Source: Kiloniellales bacterium (lineage in GTDB: Bacteria > Pseudomonadota > Alphaproteobacteria > Kiloniellales > JAKSDN01). Taken from it: a stretch of 6,400 bases of DNA. The notes beneath the pieces are model-generated. The model saw only the letters and a program-made list of their open reading frames with translations. It was not told where the DNA came from and did not search any database. The stretch covers positions 1 through 6,400 of the forward strand of contig JAKSDN010000645.1 of assembly GCA_022360075.1 (NCBI GenBank). Direction: 5' to 3'. Of the stretch, positions 1 through 6,394 are shown one piece after another. Position numbers and translations under genes: made by a program. Position 1 is the first letter of the stretch, and every line of letters starts with the position of its first letter.

Positions 1-648
1 CCACTCGCTCACGGCCTTGCTGGCCGGCCTGGCGGACATCCTCTCGAACCAGGCCGTGATTCGCGAGTGCTTCTTCCAGACCTGTTCCGGAATGATGTTG
101 CCGGCGTCGTGGGAGACGAGCTCGTGGAACGCGGCCAGATCGGCATAGCTGACCTCGTCGCCGCAAACATAGGCGCGGTCCTTGAGCCAATAGCTCTCCA
201 TGACGTCCATCGACTCGTAGAGAACGTGGTAGCCCTTCCGGCGCTCCGCCGTGAAATCCTTGTCCGAGCCGTAGATCATCGGCGCGAAGACGGTCCAGTG
301 GAACGCGCCCCCGCCCAGGCGCAGCGTGTAGGCATACCACTGCACGAACTGATTGATCTGCGCGCGTTCGCGCAACGTGGACCCGAACCAGTGGCTGGGA
401 CAGTCGAACTTTTCGTTCAGGTAGCGCCCGATGGCGACGTTCTCCCAAACGGTGAAATCGCCATCGACGAGGATCGGAACCTGTCCGGTGGGGTTGTACC
501 TGTCCCTGAATTCCTGCGTCTCGTTGATGTTCGTCGTGATGTCGACGACTTCGTCCTCGAAGGGGATATCGTTCTCGATCATGAACTGCCGTGCCGAGCG
601 ACAGGGCTGGGATGCGGGGTGATGCAGGTAGCGCAGCTTCGAACTCAT
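1..648 (-). CDS. dcmA: Dichloromethane dehalogenase-like theta-class glutathione S-transferase (partial, C-terminus beyond left edge)
   Basis: The frame is open from ATG at 648 to the window edge (216 codons). Family members are about 265-290 aa as I recall, so roughly 50-70 C-terminal residues are missing. The thioredoxin-like domain (about 1-82) contains HHPASQPCRS, with Ser13 as the expected glutathione-activating serine (Ser12 in DM11 numbering without Met). It also has the cis-Pro motif QVPILVDGDF (Pro58) and W-E-N-V-A-I at 68-73. The helical domain holds WYAYTLRLGGGAFHW (Trp118 matches the active-site-region Trp117 of DM11) and the N-capping box SYAD at 167-170. These motifs are those of DcmA, which converts dichloromethane to formaldehyde and HCl through S-chloromethylglutathione in the cytoplasm; ordinary theta GSTs share only SQPCR and VP. 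The divergent DcmR-like gene supports the call. One oddity is Asn70 where the family usually has Ser in the glutathione-binding E-S pair. Dehalogenase activity is inferred; another haloalkane could be the substrate. Confidence 0.85.
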   Translation of the reverse strand, partial: MSSKLRYLHHPASQPCRSARQFMIENDIPFEDEVVDITTNINETQEFRDRYNPTGQVPILVDGDFTVWENVAIGRYLNEKFDCPSHWFGSTLRERAQINQFVQWYAYTLRLGGGAFHWTVFAPMIYGSDKDFTAERRKGYHVLYESMDVMESYWLKDRAYVCGDEVSYADLAAFHELVSHDAGNIIPEQVWKKHSRITAWFERMSARPASKAVSEW

Positions 649-654
649 AGCGGT

Positions 655-662
655 CTCCTCCC
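655..662 (-). promoter_or_regulatory. Strong ribosome binding site of the dcmA-like gene
   Basis: On the minus strand the sequence GGGAGGAG lies 6 bases before the ATG at 648. It is a near-perfect Shine-Dalgarno site and fixes that start. It suggests efficient translation, which fits DCM dehalogenase, a slow enzyme made in large amounts in known methylotrophs. Confidence 0.75.
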
Positions 663-671
663 TGTTGACGG

Positions 672-697
672 GTGGATTCTTGAAAAGGTCGATCCAC
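672..697. repeat. Imperfectly supported inverted repeat GTGGAT-N14-ATCCAC in the dcmA-like leader
   Basis: The arms GTGGAT (672-677) and ATCCAC (692-697) are separated by 14 bases. They lie 24 to 49 bases before the ATG of the dehalogenase-like gene, just ahead of its ribosome binding site. It could be an operator or a leader hairpin. Arms of 6 bp could also occur by chance. Confidence 0.3.
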
Positions 698-820
698 TCC
701 GATTGTCGCTTTTGCCTGTGGTGGCCAGAACTGACCGGCAGGATGCGATTTCACCGCTTCCATCCGGTTTTGAGCCCCAAAAAAAGGTTAACAATGCTCG
801 ACACAGATCGTCAATCAGAT

Positions 821-842
821 TACAGGAAAGTACATCACTGTA
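821..842. repeat. Inverted repeat TACAG-N12-CTGTA before the dcmR-like gene
   Basis: The arms TACAG (821-825) and CTGTA (838-842) sit in the AT-rich stretch directly before the proposed TTG start of the regulator. The spacing places the arm centres 17 bases apart, less than two helical turns. It is a possible autoregulatory site, but the arms are short and the assignment is tentative. Confidence 0.3.
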
Positions 843-848
843 TAGGAC

Positions 849-857
849 AAGGTGAGG
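849..857 (+). promoter_or_regulatory. Ribosome binding site that favours the TTG start at 863
   Basis: AAGGTGAGG ends 5 bases before TTG 863. It is a better site than the AAAAAGG (781-787) in front of the upstream in-frame ATG at 794. It is one of two reasons, with the base composition, for choosing the downstream start. Confidence 0.5.
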
Positions 858-862
858 CACCG

Positions 863-1630
863 TTGGTCACGACCCGGCCCGACCCCAATTCGGATCTCCT
901 GAACATCAAGGAGGCCGCCGCCCTGCTGAAGGTCAGCGAGGCGTCGTTACGGCGTTGGACCAATGCGGGCCGGCTTGCCTGCCTGCGCCTGGGCGCCAAG
1001 CGCGAGCGCCGGTTCCGGCGCGCAGACCTGATGGCGTTCCTCGAAGAGCGCGAGGGGGCCGCGGCGCCGTCAGCCGCCGCTCGACCGAGCGAGGTGGTGC
1101 TGGAAGGCATCGCGATCGAGTACGGCAACCACATCTGCACCCTCTATGAGAACGATCTCGGCCGGCTCAAATGGTCGGTCCCCTTCCTCGCCGACGGACT
1201 GCGCCACGGCGAGGGCTGCTTTCTGATTGCCACGGAAGCGGTTCGCGACGAGATCCTAAGCCACATCGGCGAGGCCTATGACGGACTGCCGCAGGCCTTG
1301 GACCGAGGTCAGCTCGTTCTGAGCGACGGCATCGCCGACGGCGAAGCCATGTGCCGCTTCGTGGAGCACAGCCTGGTCATGGCGACCCGTTCGGGCCTGC
1401 GGTCCTTCAGGCTGCTCGGCGACATGACCTGGTGCTTGCACCAAGGCATGAACTACGACGAGCTGATCGCTTACGAGGTTCGCTATAACTACGCCGTCGC
1501 GCGCCAGTTCCCGCTGGTCAGCGTCTGCCAATACGATGTGCGCGATTTCTCCGGCCGCGCCGTCCTGAACGCGCTGAAGTGCCACGAGGACACCTTCAAC
1601 TACCCGCTTTCCCGCTTCCTGGCGCTGTAA
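863..1630 (+). CDS. dcmR: DcmR-like transcriptional regulator: helix-turn-helix plus MEDS sensory domain
   Basis: This protein is 255 aa from TTG 863, or 278 aa from ATG 794. I prefer TTG because the 23 extra codons are AT-rich, use codons rare here (ATA, GTA, TCA, AGG) and precede a good ribosome binding site. Residues 11-61 form an excisionase/MerR-type winged helix-turn-helix (LNIKEAAALLKVS..SLRRW, then a basic wing KRERRFRR). Residues about 86-250 match the MEDS domain (methanogen/methylotroph DcmR sensory): HICTLYEN at 90-97, FLADGLRHGEGCFLIAT, RLLGDMTW at 183-190, YE at 204-205 and CQYDVRDFSGRAV at 222-234, ending near His241. There is no Walker A motif, as expected for MEDS. DcmR represses dcmA in Methylobacterium DM4 until dichloromethane is present, and here too the gene is divergent from the dehalogenase. 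Repression of its neighbour is inferred; the inducer is unknown. No terminator with a T-run follows the stop. Confidence 0.85.
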   Translation: MVTTRPDPNSDLLNIKEAAALLKVSEASLRRWTNAGRLACLRLGAKRERRFRRADLMAFLEEREGAAAPSAAARPSEVVLEGIAIEYGNHICTLYENDLGRLKWSVPFLADGLRHGEGCFLIATEAVRDEILSHIGEAYDGLPQALDRGQLVLSDGIADGEAMCRFVEHSLVMATRSGLRSFRLLGDMTWCLHQGMNYDELIAYEVRYNYAVARQFPLVSVCQYDVRDFSGRAVLNALKCHEDTFNYPLSRFLAL

Positions 1631-1866: not shown

Positions 1867-2970
1867 TCACTTGACGTCAGCAACCAGCGTTTCCGCGCGG
1901 GCGATCACCTCGTCCTGCCAGGGCTCGAGCTCTTGCCCCGCGAGGGTCGCCAGATAGTCCGGGAGGTAGGGATCTTCGGCCGGCGTCCTGTGTCCCGACA
2001 GGGTCTCGACCGTCGCCAGGCCGCACCAGGGAACGTAGACCTGGGAATAGCCGCCCTCGTGGCACATGAGCAGACGCCCCCCGCAGAGCCGGTCGGCCGC
2101 TTCCATGAGCACGCCGGTCATCGCTCGAAAGGTCTCCGAGGTGCACATCTGCCGACCGAGCGGGTCCATGGCGTTGGCATCGAAGCCGGACGGCACGACG
2201 ATCACGTCGGGCTTGAAACGCTCGAGCGCGGGCACCACCACGCGCCGGACGGTCTCGACATAGGCCCCGTGCCCCGAGCCGGCGGGCAGCGGCACGTTGA
2301 TGTTGTAGCCCATGCCCGGTCCGGTGCCGCGCTCGTCCATGCCGCCGCTGTCCTGCGGGTAATAGTTGTCCTGATGCAAGCTGATCGTCAGCACGTCGTC
2401 CCGGTCGTAGAAGGCCTTTTGCGCGCCGTTGCCGTGGTGGACATCCCAGTCGAAGGTCGCGACGCGCTGCAGCCCCCGCTCGGCGAAGCCGTGCAGGACG
2501 GCGATCACCACGTTAGCGAAAATGCAGAAGCCGCGCCCGCGGTCGGCCTCGGCGTGATGGCCCGGCGGCCGGTTGAGCACGTAGGCGTTGCCGACGCTGC
2601 CTGCCAAGACCGCGTCGAGCCCGACGATGCATCCGCCGGCGGACAGCCGTGCGATGTCGAAGCTGTCGGGGCCGATCGGCGCCAGCTCTCCGGCATCGCC
2701 GTAGCCGGCCTCGCTCATCTCCTTCACGGCCTTGAGGTAGTCCGGCGTGTGAAAGCGCAGCAGCTCGTCCTCGCTGGCGTGGCGCGGCGTCAGCGGTGCG
2801 AGCTGTTCGGCGAGTCCGGAAACCTCGATCAGCGAGCGGAAGCGGCGCTTCGAGGGCACGCTCTCGATGTGGTTGTCCGGCTCCACGTATCCCCCGGCCG
2901 GAATCTGCCCGGCCGCGATGCCGGTGGAATGCCACATGTAGCGTTCATGCCAAAGGAAACCGGTCGCCAT
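1867..2970 (-). CDS. Class II histone-deacetylase-like zinc amidohydrolase (HDAC/acetylpolyamine aminohydrolase superfamily)
   Basis: This 367 aa protein matches the usual 340-370 aa of bacterial HDAC-like amidohydrolases, and all catalytic elements are present. RPPGHHA carries the His pair (138-139), and FDWDVHHGNG (173-182) carries zinc ligands Asp176 and His178. PSGFDANAMDPLG holds the third ligand Asp264, and HEGGYS (304-309) the transition-state Tyr308. The form GFDANxxDPLG and the GFCIFAN motif point to the class II-like branch, as in Bordetella HDAH. Such enzymes remove acetyl or other short acyl groups from amines (polyamines, acyl-lysine-like or xenobiotic amides) in the cytoplasm; the substrate here is not known. 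No signal peptide is visible. The start at 2970 follows GGAG at 8 bases. It is divergent from the amidase operon across a palindrome-bearing gap, which suggests joint control. Confidence 0.92.
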   Translation of the reverse strand: MATGFLWHERYMWHSTGIAAGQIPAGGYVEPDNHIESVPSKRRFRSLIEVSGLAEQLAPLTPRHASEDELLRFHTPDYLKAVKEMSEAGYGDAGELAPIGPDSFDIARLSAGGCIVGLDAVLAGSVGNAYVLNRPPGHHAEADRGRGFCIFANVVIAVLHGFAERGLQRVATFDWDVHHGNGAQKAFYDRDDVLTISLHQDNYYPQDSGGMDERGTGPGMGYNINVPLPAGSGHGAYVETVRRVVVPALERFKPDVIVVPSGFDANAMDPLGRQMCTSETFRAMTGVLMEAADRLCGGRLLMCHEGGYSQVYVPWCGLATVETLSGHRTPAEDPYLPDYLATLAGQELEPWQDEVIARAETLVADVK

Positions 2971-3072
2971 GCTTCGCGCTCCGCTACCTGTCGGACGTCG
3001 AGCGGCCTTCGCCCCCTCGCCGCGCCGAGACCATCTCTTCCAAGCCCGAGTGGGTGAATTAACCAGGCAAAT

Positions 3073-3102
3073 TTAACATTTTCAGTCAATAGAGGTTATG
3101 CT
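3073..3102 (+). promoter_or_regulatory. Candidate sigma-70-type promoter of the amidase operon
   Basis: TTAACA (3073-3078, 5 of 6 to the -35 consensus), an 18-base spacer and TATGCT (3097-3102, 4 of 6 to the -10) would start transcription near 3109. That leaves a leader of about 68 bases before the amidase ATG. The -10 lies inside the palindrome, so a protein bound there would block it. Confidence 0.45.
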
Positions 3103-3109
3103 CTATTGA
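3086..3109. promoter_or_regulatory. Perfect 9+9 bp inverted repeat, probable operator
   Basis: TCAATAGAG (3086-3094), a 6-base spacer GTTATG and CTCTATTGA (3101-3109) form an exact inverted repeat in an AT-rich gap. It is 24 bases long overall, the size expected for a dimeric repressor site. It overlaps the candidate -10 of the amidase operon and the possible minus-strand -35 of the deacetylase gene. The DeoR-type regulator encoded two genes downstream is the natural candidate to bind it; this is an inference. No T-run follows, so a terminator is unlikely. Confidence 0.65.
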
Positions 3110-3176
3110 ACCAGGATGCAAACCGAACCGCGCCAGGCTCCTATCATATCTGAATCTCGCTTAGAAACTGGCAAAC

Positions 3177-4616
3177 ATGAACATCCAGATGACGGCGCCG
3201 AACCAAATGACAGCTCGGGAGATGGCTGCCGCCATAAGGGACGGCCGGGCCACCAGTGTCGATCTGGTATCAAGCTGCATCGAAACCGTCAAAAGCCACA
3301 ATAAAACAGTCAACGCCTTCTGCCAGCTCTGGGAGACCGAAGCCCTCGCCGCCGCCGAAGCCACCGACCGCGCCCGGGCCCAGGGCAAGGACCTGAGGCC
3401 GCTCGAGGGCGTGCCCGTTGCGGTCAAGGACCTGCTGGACATGGCGGGGACCCGCACGGAACGCGGTAGCCGGCTCTACCAAGGCGCGGTCTCGCAGCGC
3501 GACGCGCCGGCGGTTCGTCGGCTCAAGGCGACGGGCGCCATCTTCATCGGCAAGACCACGACCTCGGAGCTCGGCTGGACCGGCGCCGGCCGCTCGCCGC
3601 TCGCCGGCGCGACGCGGACGCCCTGGAACCCGGCGCTCACAAGCGGCGGCTCCTCCGCCGGCTCGGCCGCGGCTCTCGCCGCGCGCATGGTACCGCTGGC
3701 TCTCGGCTCCGACGCCGGCGGTTCGGTGCGCATTCCGGCCGCCTTCTGCGGTGTGTTCGCACTCAAAGGCCATCTCGGCCGCATCCCTCACGCGCCCTGG
3801 TCGGCGACGGAGAGCTTGAGCTGCGTCGGTCCCATGAGCCTGTCGGTCGACGACAGCGCGCTCGCCTTCGACCTTCTCAAAGGCCCGGATCCTAGGGACC
3901 ACCTGAGCCTGCCCGCCGAGGACGAGAGCTACCTCGACGCCTGCGACCGGCCGCTGGACGGCCTTCGGCTCGGCTTTGCCGAGACGCTATTCGGCGTCTC
4001 CGTAGAGCCGGCCGTAGCGGAGACCGTCGCGCAGGCGGTGGAGCGCATCGCGGCTTCCCTGCCGGTGCGGCTGAGCCGCACCGCGCCCGACTGGCCCGAC
4101 ATGACCGACGTCTTCGAGATCCTTTGGACGGTCGGCCGCGGCCACACCAACCGCGACCGCGCGGCGGGCCGGCTCGATACGCTCGACCCGGGGCTTGCAC
4201 GCATGATCTCCGAATGCGAGCGTTTCTCGGCGCGCGACTACGTGATGGCGCTGAAAGCGCGAGCCGATTTCACGGCGCAGGTCGGAACCCTCTTCGAAGA
4301 GATCGATCTCTTGCTGCTTCCCACCATGCCGGTCTTGCCCTTCCCGGCCGATAGTCCCGGACCGCCGGAGCGGATGACCGGCCGCCTCGTCGACTGGGCG
4401 GACTGGACCCCCTTCACGCATCCTTTCAACCTGACCATGCAGCCGGCGGCGTCCCTGCCCTGCGGCTTTACCGCGGCGGGGCTGCCCGTCGGCCTGCAGA
4501 TCGTCGGACCCCGCTTCGGGGAAGCGGCGATCTTTCGGCTTGCGGCCGCGGTCGAACGGCTGATGCCCTGGCGGGATCGCCTGCCGCCCTTGCTTTCGGC
4601 CGGGGACGAGGGCTAG
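3177..4616 (+). CDS. Amidase-signature family amidohydrolase
   Basis: This 479 aa protein has the normal length for a stand-alone amidase-signature enzyme. The catalytic Lys-cisSer-Ser triad is complete: Lys84 in GVPVAVKDL, Ser159 in SGGSSAGS and nucleophile Ser183 in GSDAGGSVRIP. The spacings of 75 and 24 residues equal those of fatty acid amide hydrolase (142, 217, 241). The C-terminal THPFNLTMQPAASLPCGF and GLPVGLQIVGPR segments are also typical. The family hydrolyses linear amides to acid and amine or ammonia. Substrate-specific assignments such as biuret, allophanate or aryl acylamide cannot be made from these motifs. No gatB or gatC lies nearby, so a role as GatA is unlikely. The ATG at 3177 has only a weak ribosome binding site; ATG 3189 is an alternative. 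It is the first gene of a three-gene operon, divergent from another amide-cleaving enzyme. Confidence 0.9.
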   Translation: MNIQMTAPNQMTAREMAAAIRDGRATSVDLVSSCIETVKSHNKTVNAFCQLWETEALAAAEATDRARAQGKDLRPLEGVPVAVKDLLDMAGTRTERGSRLYQGAVSQRDAPAVRRLKATGAIFIGKTTTSELGWTGAGRSPLAGATRTPWNPALTSGGSSAGSAAALAARMVPLALGSDAGGSVRIPAAFCGVFALKGHLGRIPHAPWSATESLSCVGPMSLSVDDSALAFDLLKGPDPRDHLSLPAEDESYLDACDRPLDGLRLGFAETLFGVSVEPAVAETVAQAVERIAASLPVRLSRTAPDWPDMTDVFEILWTVGRGHTNRDRAAGRLDTLDPGLARMISECERFSARDYVMALKARADFTAQVGTLFEEIDLLLLPTMPVLPFPADSPGPPERMTGRLVDWADWTPFTHPFNLTMQPAASLPCGFTAAGLPVGLQIVGPRFGEAAIFRLAAAVERLMPWRDRLPPLLSAGDEG

Positions 4617-4623
4617 GCCGGCG

Positions 4624-5412
4624 ATGTCCGTCACCAGCGAGGGCCGCCGGGCACAGATCATGACCCTGATCAAGGATCAGGGGCGCATCTCCGTGCCGGC
4701 GCTGGCCGAGCAGATGAAGGTCTCGCAGGAGACGATCCGGCGCGACCTCAAGCTGCTGGAAGAATCCGGCAGCCTGAGGCGCGTCCACGGCGGTGCCGTC
4801 CTGCCGAGCCTGCTGATCGAGCAGCCGGTGACCGAGCGGCTGGGCCTGCACCGCGTGGCCAAGGATCGGATCGCCGCCAAGGCCGTCGAGCTGATCCAAG
4901 AGGATATGTCGCTCTTCCTCGACCCGAGCTCCACGGCGATCGCGCTCGCCCATGCCCTGGTCGGCTTTCACAAGCTCACCATCGTGACCAACTCCCTCGA
5001 GGTCGCGCGGATCGTCGGCGAGCGCTCGAGCAACCGGCTCATCGTCATCGGCGGGCTCTACAAGCGGGAGGACGCGGCCATGTTCGGCTTCGATCCGCCG
5101 GTCCAGTCGGCGCGCTATCGCTACGACATCGTCTTCAGCGGCATAGCGGCGATCACCGCCGGCCACGGCCTGATGGACTACGAAGAGGAGGAGGCGCAGT
5201 TGCGCCGCGCGCTCGTGCCGGCGGCGCGCCGCTACGTCATCCTGGCCGACAAGAGCAAGTTCAATTGCATGGCCTTCATCCAGGCGCTCACCTTCGACGA
5301 CGTCACGGACCTGATCACCGACGAGGCACCGCCGCGCGACATTGTAGAGGCGCTGGGGACCGCCGACGTGACGCTTCACCTGGCGGGCCGGCGACACCGG
5401 TCGGCCGACTAG
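4624..5412 (+). CDS. DeoR/GlpR-family transcriptional regulator
   Basis: The protein is 262 aa, near the usual 250-260 aa of the family. Residues 6-61 are the DeoR winged helix-turn-helix (RRAQIMTLIKDQGRISV, then VSQETIRRDLKLLEESG and the hallmark RRVHGGAVLP). Residues about 77-235 are the DeoRC sensor domain, related to ribose-5-phosphate isomerase. It shows LDPSSTA at 99-105 (usually LDSGST-like), VTNS at 121-124, the GG of IGGLYKRE and ADKSKF at 208-213. Such proteins are mostly repressors released by a phosphorylated metabolite. The gene begins 7 bases after the amidase stop, so it is co-transcribed and probably translationally coupled. A kinase-fold gene follows, and this fits a sensor that responds to a phosphorylated compound. 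The palindrome at 3086-3109 is its most likely target here. Confidence 0.93.
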   Translation: MSVTSEGRRAQIMTLIKDQGRISVPALAEQMKVSQETIRRDLKLLEESGSLRRVHGGAVLPSLLIEQPVTERLGLHRVAKDRIAAKAVELIQEDMSLFLDPSSTAIALAHALVGFHKLTIVTNSLEVARIVGERSSNRLIVIGGLYKREDAAMFGFDPPVQSARYRYDIVFSGIAAITAGHGLMDYEEEEAQLRRALVPAARRYVILADKSKFNCMAFIQALTFDDVTDLITDEAPPRDIVEALGTADVTLHLAGRRHRSAD

Positions 5413-5431
5413 AGATAGGGGTCGGATAGCG

Positions 5432-6394
5432 ATGGCAACCGGGACGAAGACGAACCGCTCGCCGGCCGAGGCCCTGGCCGCGGTCTTGGCCCGCCGGGGA
5501 ATGGTCCAGGGCGTCGAGATAGAGCTCGCCGCTCCCCCAGTAGCCTCGCCGGTGCACCGCGGCGTGGCCCATCACTGCTATCGCGTCGCCGCGCCGGGCC
5601 AGGCACCGCTCTTCTGCAAGCTGCCGGCGGCCGACCAGGATGGCCTGATGGATGCCGCCGCCGCGGCCGAGATGGCGGCGCTGGCCGGCGACACTGCCGT
5701 CGCCCCGCCGGTCGCCTGGTTCGACGCGGAAAGCGACGTTCTCGCCACGCGTTGGCTCGAGGGGGACTGGCGCTATGCCAGGGTCGAGGACCTGCGCCAG
5801 CCGGAGCGTCTGCGCGTCGTCTTCGCCCGCTTGCAAGCCCTGCACCGGGCGCCGCCGCCGTCAGGCGCCACGCGGCACGATCCGAGGGCCCGGCTGAGCC
5901 GGCAAGACAAGATCCTGCGCGACTTGCCGGTCGAGCGGCCGCCGAACTACGACTGGCTCCTGGACCAGGCGGCGAGCGCGCTTAGCGCGCTCAAGCCGGA
6001 GCGGGCGCCTGCCGTGCCCTGCCACCTCGGCACGATCGCCTCCAACGTCATGCTGGGCCCCGACGACGCGCTGCTGCTGGTCGACTTCGACCAGGCCGGG
6101 CTGAGCGAGCCGCTGCACGACCTCGGAATTCTCCTGACCGAAGCCTTCGACTTCGAGGACGAATGGGCCGACGCTCTCGCCCCGCACTACGGCGCGCAGA
6201 CCGCGCAGGTGGTTCATCGTGCCCGCCTCTGGGGCTTGGTCGACGATCTTTCCTGGGCACAGTGGGCGCTGATCTGCCACGCCCGCGCGCAGCGCAGCGA
6301 GATCGAGTACTTCAAGTACGCGAGCTGGCGCTTCATGCGCGCCACCTTGACGGCCGCCGACTGGACCTTCGAGCGGCGCTTGAGACAAGCCTGA
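5432..6394 (+). CDS. APH/choline-kinase-fold phosphotransferase with altered catalytic motif
   Basis: This 320 aa protein has the APH/choline kinase fold. The N-lobe has a G-loop-like segment around 44-52, an ATP-binding Lys63 in LFCKLP and a partner Glu80. The C-lobe has PCHLGTIASNVM (196-207) as the Brenner/catalytic loop, LLVDFDQAG (215-223) with metal-binding Asp218, and the PLHDLG helix start. The C-terminal W-rich segment with YFKYASWRFMRA is typical of choline/ethanolamine-kinase-like bacterial proteins. The family moves phosphate from ATP to a hydroxyl of choline, ethanolamine, thiamine, amino sugars or similar. In the HxDxxxxN motif, His198 and Asn205 remain but the catalytic Asp is Gly200. 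This suggests reduced, changed or non-catalytic function. It starts 19 bases after the DeoR stop, with AGGGG at 5417-5421 as a somewhat distant ribosome binding site, and closes the operon within the window. Antibiotic resistance is not indicated. Confidence 0.82.
   Translation: MATGTKTNRSPAEALAAVLARRGMVQGVEIELAAPPVASPVHRGVAHHCYRVAAPGQAPLFCKLPAADQDGLMDAAAAAEMAALAGDTAVAPPVAWFDAESDVLATRWLEGDWRYARVEDLRQPERLRVVFARLQALHRAPPPSGATRHDPRARLSRQDKILRDLPVERPPNYDWLLDQAASALSALKPERAPAVPCHLGTIASNVMLGPDDALLLVDFDQAGLSEPLHDLGILLTEAFDFEDEWADALAPHYGAQTAQVVHRARLWGLVDDLSWAQWALICHARAQRSEIEYFKYASWRFMRATLTAADWTFERRLRQA

Follow-up and report, generated by a model that had tools for sequence, protein, structure and literature searches.

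The DNA analysed here is a 6,400-nucleotide window at the start of contig JAKSDN010000645.1 from a Kiloniellales bacterium (GCA_022360075.1). At its left end, a dcmA-like glutathione transferase (GST) gene and a dcmR-like regulator gene diverge from an intergenic region of 214 bp (649-862). As shown in Table 1, the GST gene lies on the minus strand. Its visible 216 codons are uninterrupted, and the reading frame is still open at the left edge of the window. A domain scan found GST_N and GST_C in its product. An earlier annotation, hereafter the sequence-only reading, had assigned the architecture of DcmR to the divergent neighbour, and this was confirmed by the presence of PF12728 and PF14417 and by full-length homology to DcmR. 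The same reading had called the divergent pair complete. The GST gene and the HTH_17/MEDS gene do diverge as described, but the left edge of the window truncates dcmA after 216 codons; our yardstick for an intact DcmA is about 267-288 codons. The dcmR-dcmA-type reading is supported, since the GST falls within the DcmA clade (support 100/100) and its neighbour, homologous to DcmR over its full length, is oriented divergently as in known dcm pairs. The two genes form a real, conserved and very probably functional unit of this type, truncated here by the window edge.

Table 1. Features of the divergent gene pair and its control region, in window positions
Feature	Position	Strand	Remark
dcmA-like glutathione transferase, first 216 codons	1-648	-	ATG at 648; 3' end past the window edge
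YAYTLRLGGGAFHW block, residues 105-118	295-336	-	holds 6 of the 10 DcmA-diagnostic positions
Ser13 codon in HHPASQPCRS	610-612	-	invariant in 25-row and 34-row alignments
dcmA-leader inverted repeat GTGGAT-N14-ATCCAC	672-697	-	23 nt upstream of ATG
Putative dcmA promoter TTGACG-N17-TTAACC	786-814	-	conservation
Conserved intergenic block	786-846		core TGTACTTTCCT at 824-834
AAGGTGAGG, putative dcmR ribosome-binding site	849-857	+	
dcmR-like regulator, 255 aa	863-1630	+	TTG start
HTH_17 DNA-binding domain (PF12728) in regulator	896-1051	+	
MEDS sensory domain (PF14417) in regulator	1130-1585	+	

The species genomes of GTDB were scanned by pattern, giving 39 matches, of which 24 encode relatives (loci L001-L024). 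Protein searches found 226 relatives of the GST and 540 of the regulator, and the best 120 of each were listed. A maximum-likelihood tree of 52 rows contained 19 of the 24 loci (without L003, L005, L015, L018 and L024) and 32 database proteins (P rows), selected for spread. A quick tree of 89 rows contained all 24 loci (L022 from the match start), P0046 and 66 other P rows, minus three duplicates. DcmA was a single clade that excluded the nearest other GSTs and included the window GST in both the 52-row tree (100/100) and the 89-row tree (Shimodaira-Hasegawa-like approximate likelihood-ratio test, SH-aLRT, 100), the placement on which the sequence-only reading had staked its case. The 52-row tree had three branches: branch I with DM11, Binatota and Gammaproteobacteria (99/94), branch II with the DM4 type (100/100), and branch III with the window and 19 others (100/100). 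Branches II and III were sisters (98/88), and the 89-row tree gave the same groups, with an SH-aLRT of 86 for branches II and III together. In the latter tree, nine loci belonged to branch I (L014-L021, L024), one to branch II (L022) and 14 to branch III (L001-L013, L023). All 14 branch-III loci come from metagenome-assembled genomes (MAGs) and encode proteins of 268-270 residues; DcmA-clade relatives among the 120 of 226 matching proteins were mostly 263-289 residues long. By phylogeny, the window GST is a DcmA-family member from a third branch that is so far uncharacterised.

The closest specifically named enzyme among the best 120 of 226 matches was the dichloromethane (DCM) dehalogenase of Methylophilus leisingeri DM11 (P0046; 67%), which belongs to the same length class. 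The N-terminus and the FHWTxFAPMIYG segment had been described as more similar to DM11 than to DM4. We compared the window GST with L022, which comes from Ancylobacter dichloromethanicus, presumably a DCM user to judge from its species name. L022 stands here for the dcmRABC cluster of Methylorubrum extorquens DM4 and related methylotrophs; its DcmA is of the DM4 type and matches 160 of 169 residues in the Hyphomicrobium MC8b DcmA peptides given in Table 1 and the text of PMC7760279. The window GST was identical to DM11 at 144/216 residues and to L022 at 148/216 (DM11 vs L022, 149/267). Branches I and II have different majority residues at 58 sites; the window GST shared that of branch I at 24 of them and that of branch II at 22. 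Together with the sister grouping of branches II and III, these results give no support to a DM11-like window GST, and the FHWTxFAPMIYG stretch common to it and DM11 is better read, we infer, as ancestral. The proposal of a distinct combination survives in another form, not as a DM11-like enzyme with a DM4-like dcmR but as a third branch of DcmA under a control region of its own. Unlike the DM4-type DcmA, the window protein has no N-terminal extension and no 3-residue insertion. DM11 differs from the window in grouping with Binatota and gammaproteobacterial sequences, and the DcmR homologue of its relatives L020 and L021 lies away from dcmA. Among eukaryotic enzymes, the human theta-class glutathione transferases (T1-1, T2-2) showed 26% identity in structural alignment.

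The motif strings quoted in the sequence-only reading were found in the translation. Both DcmA hallmarks, the N-terminal-serine motif HPASQPCR and the WYAYTLRLGGGAFHW block, are present in the window GST and conserved. We take Ser13 to be the glutathione-activating serine. At ten positions, at least 43 of 44 DcmA rows share a residue that sets them apart from eight outgroup rows; the window GST had the DcmA residue at all ten. The ratio of nonsynonymous to synonymous substitution rates (dN/dS) was about 0.07-0.2 against 13 relatives; the window GST is under purifying selection. A second dcmA-like copy was seen on the chromosome of L017 (L024:10001-10510). Its frame ends after 171 residues, and it is perhaps a decaying duplicate.

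For the regulator, the program-made open reading frame (ORF) runs from TTG 665. The start is most likely TTG 863, because AAGGTGAGG lies just upstream, the database protein P0121 is an identical protein of 255 residues, and the homologues align from there. The alignment with DcmR of L022 showed 45% identity over 246 residues. A divergent dcmR stands beside dcmA in 7 of the 14 branch-III loci (L001, L007, L008, L010, L011, L012 and L023) and also in L022, that is, in 8 of 24 loci. This recurrence, together with the dN/dS of the GST, agrees with the earlier claim that chance is an improbable source of the pair. A whole-genome search at E<=1e-20 found DcmR in 10 of 23 dcmA carriers; in G020 and G021, it was without any GST within the surrounding 3.7 kb. 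At E<=1e-40, the genomes with DcmR numbered 1 among 385 in one class, 5 among 397 in one order and 1 among 11 in a second order. All positives were among the 23 dcmA carriers, and none were found in about 778 other genomes, in which dcmA itself was not searched. Within the best 120 matches listed for each protein, DcmA- and DcmR-type proteins occurred on contigs of identical size in four cases (P0001/P0128, P0003/P0124, P0014/P0177 and P0017/P0144).

We next consider the control region. Eight branch-III intergenic regions share a block with the consensus CTATACAATCATATACTTTCCTGTC-TTTGATTGACAAT followed by GTTAAC, which is weaker in L011 and L012. This block is probably the operator and the promoter of both genes. 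Scans of positions 600-1800 for sigma-70 consensus and terminators gave nothing, so the dcmA promoter call rests on conservation. The published DM4 regulatory motif is GATC(C/G)ATAGCCT, and it was also used in a widened form, GATSSATAGCCT. Two exact copies of GATSSATAGCCT lie between the genes of L022 (0 of 200 shuffles), a locus that also has the published DM4 dcmA promoter TTGACA-16-TATAGAACTAGCCC. The literal published motif gave no match in nine intergenic regions, among them that of L022. The window unit lacks the DM4-type regulatory motif and has another conserved block instead.

The leader repeat of dcmA was found as GTGGRY-N12-15-RYCCAC in six loci (the window, L001, L007, L008, L010 and L023), ending 17-23 nt upstream of ATG. 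It was absent from the seven branch-III loci without dcmR and from the dcmR-bearing loci L011, L012 and L022. L003, which has no dcmR, carries another inverted repeat at roughly this place in the leader. Among the six sequences, two of the six pairs were altered on both sides, and 15 of 500 shuffles scored equally high. An unusually stable RNA was ruled out by an ordinary folding energy (z 0.14), and no Rfam family was found in 600-950. As a lead for further work, the repeat could be an RNA leader or an operator DNA palindrome, and both readings are equally good.

The gene dcmB follows dcmA in 7 of the 14 branch-III loci (L002, L003, L005, L007, L008, L010 and L023), in two pieces in L002 and cut by the sequence end in L010. 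It also follows dcmA in L020, L021 and L022. The sequence of L001 stops just past dcmA, so its dcmB status is not readable, and any dcmB of the window would sit to the left of base 1. Three loci, L020, L021 and L022, showed a dcmC gene, and none was detected in the 14 branch-III stretches, which sets branch III apart from the DM4-type cluster. For the DM4 genes, PMC5585157, PMC9320726 and PMC12750041 describe dcmA alone as essential and give no known function for dcmB and dcmC. DcmB proteins (L008:10957-11910, L022:5040-6032) matched the sequences of solved 2-oxoglutarate-dependent dioxygenase structures (7eus and NvfI 7de2 and 7emz; E 7e-9 to 1e-14), and a 30% match of the dcmB product to a cephalosporin-biosynthesis protein is given in PMC7760279. 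In L004, a TauD-family dioxygenase gene (11022-12032) lies just 3' of the branch-III dcmA, at the place of dcmB in other loci. The same nitrilase-family gene cluster was seen within 5-6 kb of dcmA in L007 (4610-5590), L008 (14667-15725) and L012 (9873-10796), and L008 additionally has a GFA-domain gene. For both DM4 and MC8b, PMC7760279 reports a nitrilase in the neighbourhood of the dcm genes. The MC8b cluster described there resembles the window in its divergent dcm genes and its freedom from flanking insertion sequence (IS) elements, and differs in that its DcmA is of the DM4 type by peptides, a branch to which the window enzyme does not belong, and in that its dcmC is a relic.

In our judgement, the pair is probably a dcmR-dcmA-type unit for inducible, glutathione-dependent dehalogenation of dihalomethanes. 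The window enzyme very probably strips halogen from DCM-like molecules. Dihalomethane activity is the parsimonious expectation for branch III, because branches with characterised dehalogenases surround it. The GST would activate glutathione via its N-terminal serine and displace one halide from CH2X2, where X is Cl and perhaps Br or I. The resulting S-halomethylglutathione would hydrolyse to S-hydroxymethylglutathione and then yield formaldehyde. DcmR would bind the conserved intergenic block and keep both dcmA and dcmR repressed; sensing of the halomethane or a derivative by its MEDS domain would lift the repression. In most branch-III hosts, the product would pass to glutathione-dependent formaldehyde dehydrogenase and not to the Fae/tetrahydromethanopterin route. 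This mechanism is known, and what is new is the lineage and the control region. PMC7760279 states that no DCM degradation system other than DcmA has been characterised at the sequence level; in the legend of its Figure 3, a few sequences (DM4-like, MC8b and DM11) stand for the known DcmA diversity. A third deep DcmA branch, paired with dcmR and often accompanied by dcmB, shows where more of this diversity is to be found. It also offers a second DcmR-operator system for comparison with DM4.

We examined the fate of formaldehyde in the 23 dcmA genomes. Glutathione-dependent formaldehyde dehydrogenase was above the cut-off in 20 and fae in 4, and all had at least one of the two. In branch III, the former was found in 13 of 14 genomes and the latter in just one. 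This distribution is compatible with the proposed product fate and says nothing beyond that.

Several results weigh against a unit of this kind. No match to GATSSATAGCCT with up to two mismatches was found in the window. An adjacent dcmR is absent in 7 of the 14 branch-III loci, and a search at E<=1e-20 gave no DcmR at any other place in these seven genomes. S-formylglutathione hydrolase was above the cut-off in just 9 of the 23 dcmA genomes. Glutathione-dependent formaldehyde dehydrogenase occurs in 100 of 150 genomes of one order, and its enrichment in dcmA genomes is borderline (p about 0.05). P0050, a GST just outside DcmA, and P0204, a 70% DcmR relative, are on contigs of identical size (97,220). 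PMC11507031 describes a MEDS regulator in an epoxyethane cluster. We found no activity or induction data for any branch-III member and no work on branch III in the literature, in a search that had most subscription journals outside its coverage. The protein search gave 540 relatives of the regulator, of which the best 120 were listed, a caveat on the exclusivity of dcmA and dcmR. A DcmR of the window type may also govern other GSTs such as the sister GST P0050, so that its association with dcmA would not be exclusive.

The P0050/P0204 pair and the epoxyethane cluster would also suit a GST that detoxifies another small electrophile, an epoxide or haloalkene sensed by the MEDS regulator; the nearest non-DcmA GSTs have no known function here. 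We consider this unlikely, since the window GST retains all ten DcmA-diagnostic residues and its branch is bracketed by two with characterised DCM dehalogenases. A decayed or chance arrangement, in which the GST is a remnant or the genes are mere neighbours, is highly improbable. The GST is cut at the window edge, where its intactness is not visible, and the relative L024 stops at 171 residues. Against this stand the 216 open codons with their low dN/dS, the same divergent pair in 8 of 24 loci and the conserved intergenic block. An enzyme that is DcmA by descent, with a biogenic dihalomethane (CH2Br2, CH2I2) as natural substrate and a role in detoxification instead of growth on DCM, is a serious possibility, albeit one we are inclined to doubt. 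None of the 14 branch-III MAGs is named as a DCM degrader, and only one has fae. In PMC8262859, dcmA is reported from one genome of Bin18, a sponge-associated Binatota order, so branch I in Binatota is already published; PMC10385969 reports DCM dehalogenase genes only in the natural-environment samples of one soil study. On the other side, substrate preference is not readable from sequence here, and the completeness of the branch-III MAGs is unstated.

Returning to the dihalomethane dehalogenation unit, we tentatively suggest a wider role for its branch. Branch III could represent a reservoir of dihalomethane dehalogenases that exists naturally in uncultured, mostly Fae-less bacteria, independent of the spread of dcm genes among pollutant degraders and predating it, coupled to glutathione-dependent formaldehyde oxidation, with its own DcmR operator and dcmA leader element, and acting on biogenic dibromo- or diiodomethane. 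Its sequences are concrete material for asking where dcm genes originated and whether dihalomethane dehalogenation plays a part in unpolluted habitats.

The remaining window genes encode a histone-deacetylase-like protein, an amidase, a DeoR regulator and an APH-like kinase (domain scan). When these four were sought in the relatives, only amidase-family matches of 27-39% were found, in 4 of 24 loci (L002, L005, L012 and L013) and none beside dcmA, and they were dropped as members of the unit. The domain scan, which covered only the six main window ORFs, detected no transposase domain, in line with the earlier statement that the window has no IS element; L022 has a transposase near dcmR. A tRNA scan found none. 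Plasmid records gave no DNA match to the window, and their protein matches were only GSTs and MEDS proteins below 60% identity. PHROGs matches were GST- and excisionase-like only and uninformative. By eye, the gap between dcmR and the next gene (1710-1800) appears repeat-like, with inverted segments gggcttgacccggtgatcc, then cccgggtcaag and gccggatcaagtccgg. The G+C content is 61-66% in dcmA and dcmR (1-1630) and 67-71% in the other four genes (1867-6394), which is a mild hint of a separate origin for the pair.
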